In this document: in pieces, positions 17,866 to 23,075 of the stretch | Position numbering within the stretch: position 1 is the first letter of the stretch | Layout: each line of letters opens with the position of its first letter | From: an uncultured Eubacteriales bacterium | GTDB lineage: Bacteria; Bacillota; Clostridia; Christensenellales; Aristaeellaceae | Reading direction: 5' to 3' | Length of the DNA: 33,972 bases | NCBI GenBank assembly: GCA_902799045.1 | Contig: CADBZH010000015.1 | Location: forward strand, 1-33,972 | Position numbers and translations under genes: made by a program | Notes under the pieces: generated by a model | Database searches by the model: none | The model's input: only the letters and a program-made list of their open reading frames with translations | Told to the model about the DNA's origin: nothing

Positions 17866-17942
17866 GCACCCATAGCTCAGCAGGATAGAGCGACCGCCTC
17901 CTAAGCGGTAGGTCAGGGGTTCGAATCCCTTTGGGTGCGCCA
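17866..17942 (+). tRNA. tRNA-Arg (anticodon CCU)
   Basis: The cloverleaf is visible: acceptor stem GCACCCA/TGGGTGC, D-arm with AGCTCAGCAGGATAGAGC, anticodon stem ACCGC/GCGGT with loop CTCCTAA (anticodon CCT), and T-arm GGGGTTCGAATCCCT. The discriminator is G and the CCA end is encoded. It reads AGG codons. It has its own promoter and terminator. Confidence 0.95.
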
Positions 17943-18093: not shown

Positions 18094-20130
<2,037 letters not shown>

Positions 20131-20144
20131 CGGAGAGGGAGTGG

Positions 20145-20590
20145 CAGGGAGTAGGCAGTAGGGAGTAGGGAGTAGGAATGGTGGAAAACTACAAGGATTT
20201 GATCGTCTGGAAAAGGGCGATGCAGCTGGTTGAAGCCGCATACAAATTGGCGAACAGACTACCCCGGGAAAGATGTTTGCTCTTTCCGATCAAATCAGGC
20301 GCTCAGCAGTCTCCATCCCTTCAAATATCGCCGAGGGATATGGGCGCAATTCCACGAAGGACTATATTCGCTTTCTGTCTATTGCCAGAGGCTCCCGCTA
20401 TGAATTCGAAACCCAGTTGTTGTTGTGTGTGCGGCTGGGCTACATGAGCGAAAGTGATATTGATAAAGCAATTCAACTGGGTGAAGAAGTTGGGAAAATG
20501 CTCAATGTGATCATCTCGAAACTGGGATATCAATGATGAGCTGTGGAGCCAGGCTATTCCTACTCCCTACTCCCTACTGCCTACTCCCTG
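20145..20590 (+). mobile_element. four-helix-bundle element with 35-bp inverted repeats
   Basis: Positions 20145-20179 and 20556-20590 are perfect 35-bp inverted repeats, each built of heptamers (GGGAGTA, GGCAGTA, GGGAGTA, GGGAGTA, then GGAAT). They enclose a single four-helix-bundle gene. The unit lies between gyrB and gyrA, which are normally adjacent in one operon, so it looks inserted. No transposase is encoded and no clear target duplication is visible. Mobility is inferred. Confidence 0.6.
20178..20536 (+). pseudogene. four-helix-bundle (S23/bAvd-like) protein, frameshifted
   Basis: The first frame (from ATG 20178) reads VENYKDLIVWKRAMQLVEAA and 'NRLPRE'. The second frame (from 20273) continues MFALSDQIRRSAVSIPSNIAEGYGRNSTKDYIRFLSIARGS and ends at TGA 20534. 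Joined, these give a complete protein of about 119 residues of the family found as 23S rRNA intervening-sequence proteins and as bAvd accessory proteins of diversity-generating retroelements. One base is missing near 20270-20272. The start codon lies on the inner edge of the left inverted repeat, whose GGGAG serves as the only RBS. The role of stand-alone members is unknown. No reverse transcriptase is present. Confidence 0.85.
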
Positions 20591-20606
20591 ACAAGGAGGA
20601 TGCCTT

Positions 20607-23075
20607 ATGGCAGACGAATTCAACATCGGCAAACTGACTCCCCTCAACATTGAGGACGAGTTAAAAAAATCCTTTATATCCTACGCCATGGCGGTCATCG
20701 TCACCCGCGCCCTGCCGGACGTGCGGGACGGCCTGAAGCCGGTGCACCGGCGCATCCTGTACTCGATGAACGAGATGGGCATCACGCCGGACAAGCCCTA
20801 CAGGAAGTCCGCGCGCATCGTGGGCGACGTGCTCGGTAAATACCATCCCCACGGCGATTCGAGCGTCTACGACGCCATGGTGCGCCTGGCGCAGGATTTC
20901 TCCATCCGCTACACGCTGGTGGAGGGCCAGGGCAACTTCGGCTCCGTGGACGGCGACGGCGCGGCGGCCATGCGATACACCGAGGCGCGCCTGTCCAAGC
21001 TCTCCATGGAGATGGTGCGCGACATCGAGAAGGAGACCGTCGACTTCTACCCGAACTTCGACGAGACCCTGATGCAGCCCGCCGTGATGCCCAGCCGCTT
21101 CCCGAATTTGCTGGTGAACGGCTCCAGCGGCATCGCCGTCGGCATGGCCACGAACATCCCGCCCCACAACCTGGGCGAGGTGATCGACGCCTGCGTGCAC
21201 TACATCGACCATCCGGACTGCACCGTGGACGACCTGATGCAGTTCGTCAAGGGCCCGGATTTCCCCACCGGCGGCGTGATCCTGGGCAAGAGGGGCATCT
21301 ATGACGCCTACCACGAAGGCCGCGGCCGCATCATCGTGCGCGCCAAGAGCGAGATCGAGGAGATGAGCCAGGGCCGCCAGAGGATCGTCGTCACCGAGAT
21401 CCCCTACATGGTCAACAAGGCCAAGCTGATCGAGAAGATCGCCGAGATGGTGCATGAGAAGACCGTCGAGGGCATCAGCGATATCCGCGACGAGTCTGAC
21501 CGCGCGGGCATGCGCATCGTCATCGAGCTGAAGCGCGACGTGAACGCCAACGTGGTGCTGAACACGCTCTACAAGCACACCCAGCTGCAGGACACCTTCG
21601 GCGCCATCATGCTGGCCCTGGTGGACGGCACGCCGAAGATCCTGAGCCTCCGGCAGATGATCCACCACTACCTGGAGCACCAGGAGGATGTGATCCGCCG
21701 CCGCACCCAGTACGACCTGAACAAGGCCGAGGCCCGCAGCCACATCCTGGAGGGCCTGATCATCGCCTTGGACAACATCGACGAGGTCATCGCGCTGATC
21801 CGCGGCTCCCGCACCGGCCAGGAGGCCAAGGAGGGCCTGATGAGCCGCTTCGGCCTGTCCGAGCGCCAGGCGCAGGCCATCCTGGACATGCGCCTGCAGC
21901 GCCTGACCGGTCTGGAACGCGACAAGATCGAGGCCGAGTACGCCGAGCTTCAGAAGCTGATCGCCTATTACAAGGCCGTTCTGGCCGACGAGGGCATGGT
22001 GCTGGGCATCATCAAGGACGAGCTGACCGAGATCAAGCGCAAGTACGCCGACGAGCGGCGGACCGAGATCTCCGCCCTGGACGGCGAGATCGACATGCTG
22101 GATCTGATCGCCGAGGAGGACATGGTCGTCACGCTGACGCACTACGGCTATGTCAAGCGCCTGCCCAAGGCCACCTACCGCGCCCAGAAGCGCGGCGGCA
22201 AGGGCGTCGTCGGCGCCACCACCCGCGAGGAGGACTTCGTGGAGCAGATGTACGTGGTGAATACCCACGACACGCTGATGTTCTTCACCAACCGCGGCCG
22301 GGTGTACCAGTTGAACTGCTACCAGATCCCGGAGGCCGGGCGCACCGCCCGGGGCACCGCCATCGTGAACCTGCTGCAGCTGGACGCCGGGGAGAAGGTG
22401 AAGGCGCTGCTGCCGGTCCCGGCGGAGAAGGTGGCGGGCCACTACCTGATCATGGCCACGAAGAACGGCGTCATCAAGCGCACGGAGCTTTCCGAGTTCA
22501 CGAACCTGCGCAAGAGCGGCCTGATCGCGCTGGTGCTGCGCGAGGACGACGAGCTGATCGGCGTGGCGCTGACCGACGGCAGCTACGAGCTGCTGCTGGG
22601 CACCCGCGACGGCATGGCCATCCGCTTCCCGGAGAGCGATATGCGGCCCATCGGCCGCGCCGCCATGGGCGTGAAGTCCATCGAGCTGAATCGGGGCGAC
22701 GAGGTCGTGGACATGTGCCCGGTGTTCGAGGGCATGAAGGTGCTCTCCATCACCGAGAACGGCTACGGCAAGCTCACCGAAATCGAGGAATACCGCGTGC
22801 AGAGCCGCGGCGGCAAGGGCATCAAGGCCATGAACCTCACCGCCAAGACCGGCCGGCTCACCTGCCAGCTGCTGGCGGACGAGGCCGAGGATATCCTGCT
22901 GATCACCGACGACGGCACGATCATCCGCACGCCCGTCTCCTCCATCTCCACGCTGGGCCGCGCCACCCAGGGCGTGAGGCTGATGCGCGTGGCCGAGGAC
23001 AGCAAGGTCATCTCCGTCGCCCGCGCCGAGGCCGAGGAGGACGAGGAAGAGGGCGACAACGAGGAGGAGATTTGA
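20607..23075 (+). CDS. gyrA: DNA gyrase subunit A
   Basis: 822 residues. The ATG at 20607 has AAGGAGG at 20593-20599, just outside the inserted element. The winged-helix/tower cleavage domain contains the active-site tyrosine Y124 in [12 protein letters not shown]. The quinolone-determining loop [11 protein letters not shown] has S85 and D89 (E. coli S83 and D87), i.e. the sensitive state. A long coiled coil runs from about 350 to 490. The C-terminal beta-pinwheel begins with the GyrA box QKRGGKG (about 528), which marks gyrase rather than ParC. The tail is acidic ([12 protein letters not shown]). It cuts and reseals DNA with GyrB. Expression depends on transcripts passing through the 476-bp insert unless an unseen promoter lies there. 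Confidence 0.96.

Follow-up and report, generated by a model that had tools for sequence, protein, structure and literature searches.

A four-helix-bundle gene between inward-facing heptamer arrays: a probable mobile family at gyrB–gyrA and other bacterial gene junctions

The DNA analyzed here is a stretch of 33,972 nucleotides (the window) from an uncultured Eubacteriales bacterium, and it carries, between gyrB and gyrA, an insert of about 450 bp with a gene for an S23/IVP four-helix-bundle (4HB) protein. The insert is probably one copy of a mobile family whose 4HB protein recognizes the heptamer arrays that form its arms, with a host enzyme moving it. The mobility of the family is well supported, and the recognition of the arms by the protein is the part that we infer. 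Two features by which mobile elements in general are identified were found, namely presence and absence at homologous sites and discordance with the host tree. Far from being a one-off, the window element stands among many families whose heptamers differ. In their general plan, two arrays that face inward enclose an S23/IVP 4HB gene; the repeated word is 7 nt long (rarely 8 nt) and usually has the form AG plus five variable bases.

A wider proposal can be made only tentatively, and we put it at a little below an even chance. It describes an unrecognized mobile class in at least 10 phyla, in which a non-catalytic helical pentamer would read a lineage-specific seven-base code in the arms and borrow a host enzyme to move itself and its gene-less copies; rRNA intervening sequences (IVS) and the IVP genes linked to CRISPR would represent landing sites of a special kind, and the heptamer repeats of many genomes would be footprints. 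One mobile system would then explain both the stand-alone S23/IVP 4HB family and the heptamer tandem repeats, in a form that is testable at the bench, and it could explain 4HB genes in rRNA and cas operons. It would also add a type of mobile element without a recognized enzyme of its own, with a possible protein–DNA (or protein–RNA) code whose specificity is readable from sequence pairs.

The insert and its protein

The features of the insert and its flanks, in window coordinates, are:

18196..20130, + strand: gyrB, left flank, host gene (profile match)
20142..20179, + strand: left arm, inward-facing AGGGAGT/AGGCAGT heptamer array (38 nt, 97%; 35/35 core)
20178..20447, + strand: first ORF, with the ~31-residue N-terminal part of the 4HB protein and then out of frame (no Pfam match)
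20273..20536, + strand: second ORF, with what is left of the S23/IVP four-helix-bundle protein (87 residues; PF05635, E 7.2e-30; TIGR02436, E 1.9e-30)
20556..20593, - strand: right arm, the left-arm array on the opposite strand (38 nt, 97%; 35/35 core)
20607..23075, + strand: gyrA, right flank, host gene (profile match)

A preliminary description of this DNA had reported a perfect 35-bp inverted repeat of GGGAGTA-type heptamers, inserted between gyrB and gyrA, with a start codon on the arm edge, and each of these points was confirmed. Both flanks were matched, and the arms are complementary at 35 of 35 positions (20145-20179 against 20556-20590) and at 37 of 38 over 20142-20179 and 20556-20593. 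AGGGAGT units build both arms, a single AGGCAGT unit is mirrored at the equal place, and the first ATG (20178) overlaps the edge of the left arm. The chance expectation of such a pair in the window is ~2e-12 by a crude estimate that ignores the repetitiveness of the arms. The interior of the insert has a G+C content of 48% against 65% in gyrB and gyrA (64% in the whole window). A stem in the transcript had also been proposed, and folding predicts one for the element with -190 kcal/mol and a z of -7.1 against 100 shuffles. Directly upstream of gyrB, at 17866-17942, the window carries a tRNA-Arg (CCT).

The 4HB gene of the window is split over two frames, so that the assembled sequence does not encode a complete protein; the frames are open in most relatives. 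The frame shift is either an assembly error or real decay, and the two ORF pieces were analyzed separately with the frame not mended. The second ORF scores 103.8 bits against PF05635 (cut-off 33.8) and 105 bits against TIGR02436 (cut-off 24). Of the single S23/bAvd-like gene that had been described, the family assignment is upheld by these matches and the intact gene is not; what lies inside the long terminal inverted repeat is an S23p ORF that is broken. The window element encodes no nuclease, recombinase or polymerase and no Y1 HUH transposase.

Based on low dN/dS, the 4HB protein appears to be kept functional. Values of 0.04-0.26 were obtained for the 23 computable of 66 gene pairs, with silent sites mostly near saturation, and the sole pair with a low dS (0.45) gave 0.07. 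In the alignment, Q, R, S, N and E are invariant across both 4HB subfamilies, in agreement with the GxxRxxxSxxxNxxE motif as given in passages of PMC3936711. The solved relatives 2gsc and 2rld have five chains each, and a Xanthomonas S23/IVP relative is a homopentamer according to passages of PMC4990558, in which S23p is said to have no known job. Five subunits in 2gsc and 2rld match five heptamer lengths in each window arm, which is suggestive but only as a coincidence, since arm lengths vary. In one relative (L042, contig C103 of genome G024) the first 25 positions of the 4HB profile lie ~360 bp from the remainder; this gene is apparently interrupted, and heptamer arrays stand outside both of its pieces.

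Related loci, the gyrB–gyrA junction and other landing sites

In the genus, PF05635 matches were found in 20 of 28 genomes (42 rows), which are mostly metagenome bins in draft state, where repeats can cause misassembly. At the 29 4HB loci that we inspected outside the window, mostly the best scoring of the 42 rows, period-7 arrays stand on both sides in 21 cases, on one side in six (L030, L034, L038, L039, L044 and L055, with L034 and L039 near contig edges) and on neither side in two (L048 and L052). The heptamers are GGGAGTA, GGGATTA, GGGAACA and GGGAAAA, with GGAGTGA-like words around a second 4HB protein subfamily. The word varies among elements and is shared by the two arms of one element.

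The gyrB–gyrA junction is readable in 21 of the 28 genomes. An armed 4HB gene occupies it in ten (the window's genome G000, where it is broken, and G006, G008, G010, G014, G016, G018, G021, G022 and G027), G005 has a remnant, and ten have no 4HB gene. The preliminary description had suggested a minimal mobile unit without a transposase in an essential operon, to be sought through insert-free junctions in relatives; these ten empty sites beside the filled ones, together with arms elsewhere in the genome, bear it out. A gene inherited vertically would be the simplest source of the filled junctions: a domesticated gene of the gyrase operon, kept for the control of gyrase or of the operon, with arrays grown by slippage. 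It would account for the ten junctions with 4HB (the window's broken) and the remnant, and for the conservation of the protein. Yet it is very improbable, given that as many junctions lack the gene, that the heptamer types are discordant with the gyr tree, that the silent divergence of the 4HB genes is far above that of gyrA in four of five intact same-type pairs, and that the same element type is found at a different junction in other species.

The discordance was measured on a tree of gyrB and gyrA with five open forks, from which the damaged G018 row was excluded and in which G005 was counted as filled. The four heptamer types need 5 changes among the 10 filled rows, and the filled or empty state needs 7. 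A clade of the GGGAGTA rows is rejected with a p-AU of 2.8e-8, and one of the GGGATTA rows with a p-AU of 4e-4. G018 was dropped because its branch length is 10 when included and its gyrA match is split; on the tree that includes it the types do no better than random labelling, with 145 of 500 shuffles fitting equally well. As for silent sites, four of the five intact same-junction, same-type pairs have a synonymous difference of 0.67-0.78 in 4HB, against 0.20-0.38 in their gyrA. The fifth pair, G006/G014, with 0.34 against 0.18, could be vertical. The second ORF piece of the window differs by 0.69 from G008 and 0.47 from G016, where gyrA differs by 0.26 and 0.20. Taken together, the discordance of types and the excess silent divergence indicate that distinct element lineages entered gyrB–gyrA repeatedly, and they led us to reject vertical inheritance at this junction as a general account.

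The bin of G016 contains two gyr contigs, C2 and C69 (L050/L070 and L034), with different element types, perhaps from two strains in one bin. For this reason the sister pair G016/G021 with its different elements, a candidate for decisive evidence, was set aside and given no weight. Draft bins and a case such as G016 may raise the suspicion that the architecture is an artefact of assembly or binning from short repeats. We find this hardly credible, since the same architecture is present in 13 of 14 plasmid copies, on records described as complete, and the same kind of junction was recovered in many species.

Several junctions are used in more than one species, gyrB–gyrA among them. Others are purA–purB (four species) and an acsC site (three), the gene names resting on a reading of the protein sequences, and a site beside an ABC-transporter gene, named by eye, where three species have subfamily A and a fourth has subfamily B. 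Two sites of gene-less copies in a syntenic 9.5-kb stretch differ in their content between genomes. At site X, G000 and G017 have just a short spacer, whereas the insert is of the GGAATGA type in G015 and G026 and of the GGGATTA type in G010; site D has a different family in each of G000, G015/G026, G010 and G017. By eye, no clear target duplication was found at sites A, C, D, E and X, the flanks of X being too diverged, and no clean excision footprint was seen.

At the 4HB-free gyrB–gyrA junctions of G001, G009, G024 and G025 (L076, L072, L067 and L078) there can be another hairpin repeat, CTCCCTCAGTC...GACAGCTCCCTCG...GAGGGAGCC, which makes this spacer a general landing place.

Beyond the genus we analyzed 96 further loci. 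Named genomes contributed 80 of them, the best of 586 confirmed relatives, and viral contigs the other 16. Matched inverted arms (score of at least 14) were found at 62 of the 96; among 430 control windows laid out with identical geometry on these contigs, 6 had such arms. When 5 duplicate viral and 4 short-flank loci are removed, own arm pairs pass at 57 of 87 loci and mixed-locus pairs in 37 of 2149 cases, so the arm match is specific to the element; the other 30 loci, about a third, are below a score of 14. By record title, the armed loci belong to at least 10 phyla, which include Bacillota, Bacteroidota, Planctomycetota, Acidobacteriota, Pseudomonadota, Verrucomicrobiota, Spirochaetota, Nitrospirota, Nitrospinota and Cyanobacteriota. 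The period is 7 in 51 and 8 in 8 of 60 left arms (length quartiles 25, 31 and 37), and in 49 of the 60 three quarters or more of the units carry AG at one constant phase (CT in 5), which is a common inward-facing polarity of the arms.

Plasmids were sampled with 14 of 32 matching records, mostly the best ranked and all described as complete. Arms with a score of at least 14 flank 13 of the 14 4HB copies and 0 of 56 control windows, the arms of L245, L249 and L253 scoring only 14-15. The plasmid sites include cas6–cas4, cmr2–cmr3 and the space between two ribonucleotide reductase genes, among others, and an armed 4HB gene lies between cas genes on plasmids of Anabaena sp. 90 (L240), Pseudanabaena galeata (L248) and Picosynechococcus PCC 7003 (L249). 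The Thiohalocapsa 4HB protein has no match in 50,697 phage records, and a search of the 4HB loci with seven 23S motifs, run without a positive control, gave 0 matches.

Dispersed arrays, heptamer words and the moving enzyme

The genome of the window (G000, 93% complete) has one PF05635 gene. A search for the arm elsewhere, as had been advised, yielded 93 matches to a 521-base query, which merge by eye into 33 places beyond the window element. Two outcomes had been named in advance as contrary to mobility, the same insert at the same place in all relatives by vertical descent, or arms found only here with no empty site; neither holds, since 10 of 21 junctions lack the insert and the arm word lies at many other places. 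Twenty stretches covering 29 of the 33 places were inspected. They contain 34 arrays of at least three units, and when both arms of a pair are counted, a partner facing inward lies within 500 bp of 12 of them and one facing outward of none, 3 have a same-strand neighbor and the remainder are single. Many of these arrays are followed on the inner side by a short sequence, for example GGAATAGCGGCTGCCGCG, which is the mark of small gene-less inserts. In G025, from which 20 stretches were picked around GGGAAAA arrays, the counts for 44 arrays are 37 inward partners, 1 outward partner and 15 same-strand neighbors. Short gene-less inserts with shared inverted ends, as in MITEs, are thus found among the dispersed copies, and the window's own copy is not of this kind.

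A different and very abundant short repeat, with ends like TACTAAATTCC and unrelated to the heptamer arrays, was seen at 8521-8690 of L013 (contig C43 of G000); about 40 of this repeat are among the matches listed in G010.

One explanation of the dispersed copies is that the arrays belong to ordinary MITEs mobilized by a different transposase (Y1/RAYT or IS, for instance) and that the 4HB gene is one cargo caught between two of them. The many gene-less inserts framed by arrays can be read in this way, as can arrays in genomes without a PF05635 match and the presence of a Y1_Tnp match in 16 of the 28 genus genomes. We consider it unlikely. The paired arrays are clearest in G025, which has no match to Y1_Tnp or RVT_1, the only two families searched; the 4HB gene lies between matched arms in many phyla and on plasmids; and the heptamer tracks the 4HB protein lineage. 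In the 15-row part of the 4HB tree (six open forks) the four heptamer words need 3 changes, which is the minimum, against 5 on the gyr tree; the word follows the lineage of the protein and not the host. Arrays also go without the gene: no PF05635 match was found in G017 (97% complete, 117 exact array matches) or G012 (89% complete, 228), which implies that arrays outlive the gene or do without it.

The relation between resident element and arrays was examined in the 28 genomes by counting exact overlapping three-unit word matches, including the elements' own arms where they match, with element types taken from the window and the inspected loci (15 elements, the G005 remnant omitted). GGGAAAA arrays occur in only four genomes: the pair with a GGGAAAA-armed gene gives 46 and 12 matches, and the others give 1 each. 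GGGAGTA arrays were found in all seven genomes with such an element and in 8 of 21 others, and GGGATTA arrays in three of four (none in G016) and in 9 of 24 others. GGGAACA arrays are in both genomes with such an element, but also in 19 of 26 others. The observed agreement was reached by 0 of 20000 genome shuffles and 13 of 20000 type shuffles; genomes that harbor an element of a given word are enriched in arrays of this word. Across phyla, protein distance and heptamer distance correlate weakly (Mantel r 0.15; 19 of 5000 shuffles) among 50 elements selected for having an AG-phased arm of period 7. Dispersal of the heptamer outside the genus is weak: the Thiohalocapsa heptamer is at 3 places besides the element in its own genome and absent from 10 of 12 genomes reached through 4HB loci, and in the L091 genome the heptamer is at the element's place only.

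Another hypothesis places the element at the RNA level, where the 4HB protein would bind the hairpin of the transcript and, in an Avd-like manner, a reverse transcriptase would spread the element in trans. The predicted RNA stem is strong, the 4HB family resembles Avd as described in passages of PMC10053308, and the 4HB gene has the same direction as its upstream neighbor at 25 of the 26 genus loci where a neighbor was called and at 42 of 45 named armed loci. This sense rate, based on strand calls from a simple ORF composition score, is also seen at 17 of 18 loci scoring <12 and is close to that of ordinary neighboring pairs at those named loci (68 of 80), so the orientation tells little. Among annotated plasmid copies, 10 of 13 are sense to the upstream gene and three (L241, L244 and L245) are antisense, which shows that sense orientation is common and not required. 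With these antisense copies, and with no RVT_1 match in 20 of the 28 genus genomes (draft bins), G000, G025 and G010 included, the RNA-level hypothesis is improbable, less likely than caught cargo. The RNA-based route through a reverse transcriptase in trans that the preliminary description had allowed for is accordingly disfavored, as is a reverse transcriptase as a necessary partner.

A Y1 transposase as a necessary partner is likewise disfavored, Y1_Tnp matches being absent from 12 of the 28 genomes, G025 among them. The three Y1_Tnp matches of G000 are fragmentary and away from the element. At G000:C20:12484-12812 a Y1 transposase matches in two adjacent pieces and is apparently broken.

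Under the preferred reading, that of a mobile family served by its own 4HB protein, the 4HB pentamer would bind the heptamer arms, as DNA or as an RNA hairpin, and the binding would mark the element for mobilization. The short gene-less copies would use the protein in trans. A host enzyme would cut and join the element; host chemistry is proposed because nothing enzyme-like is encoded in the element and because RVT_1 and Y1 matches are missing in many genomes. Insertion into an operon would give expression of the 4HB gene by read-through, and cleavage of the stem by RNase III, by analogy with the 23S rRNA IVS, would leave the operon transcript less impaired. Several observations speak against this reading: the element has no enzyme, target duplications and excision footprints were not seen, about a third of the 4HB loci are without matched arms, arrays abound in G017 and G012 where PF05635 has no match, and GGGAACA and GGGATTA arrays occur in many genomes in which no element of that type was seen.

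Comparison with known systems

Passages of PMC4990558 describe a 23S rRNA IVS as a 428-nt insert with an S23p ORF, the ends of which form a 28-bp stem and which RNase III excises, and mention an earlier proposal that the IVS has a mobile origin. As far as these passages go, the window element is similar in having one S23/IVP 4HB gene inside stem-forming insert ends. It differs in lying in a protein-coding operon, gyrB–gyrA, and not in rRNA, and, by the description of the IVS in the same passages, in its lineage-specific arms of tandem heptamers, which are also dispersed with gene-less inserts. It is not classed here as a 23S rRNA IVS because it lies outside the 23S rRNA gene, the location by which these are defined; by analogy, the heptamer-armed elements may be a wider class that includes the 23S rRNA IVS. 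The PF05635 family is compared in passages of PMC10053308 to the Avd of diversity-generating retroelements. Unlike these, G000 and 19 other of the 28 genus genomes have no RVT_1 match.

In Pleurocapsa, a 23S_rRNA_IVP gene associated with CRISPR-cas is mentioned in passages of PMC3936711. The plasmid copies at cas6–cas4 and cmr2–cmr3 belong to the same family and resemble that case to the extent that it is described there. The three plasmid cas copies have inverted arms, although the Picosynechococcus pair is short, with a score of 14. Given these arms, the association can be accounted for by a mobile element that entered the cas operon and has no part in CRISPR function. The IVP genes reported with CRISPR loci may likewise have been brought in as heptamer-armed 4HB elements.

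With REP/RAYT and MITEs the family shares a gene-bearing copy and many short gene-less copies with the same ends in one genome. In contrast to REP/RAYT, no Y1 match was found in G025, where the pattern is clearest, and the ends are built of 7-nt words in tandem. Heptamer tandem repeats are also known from cyanobacteria as STRR, and we know of no accepted origin for such repeats. The TAACTGA repeats of Beggiatoaceae are abundant and intergenic according to passages of PMC4679880, and in this they are like the 7-nt tandem arrays described here; the latter are set apart, as far as that description reaches, by often forming facing pairs around inserts. The terms 'S23' and 'four helix' do not occur in the main text of PMC4679880, the part covered by a term search. 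In the titles and abstract openings searched, a set that left preprints and most subscription papers out of reach, no link between 4HB genes and heptamer arrays was found. We can name no known mobile element whose arms are heptamers in tandem and which encodes nothing but a four-helix-bundle protein, and on this ground we call the heptamer-armed 4HB element categorically new; if the 23S rRNA IVS were counted as the same kind, the 4HB element would be a variant instead.
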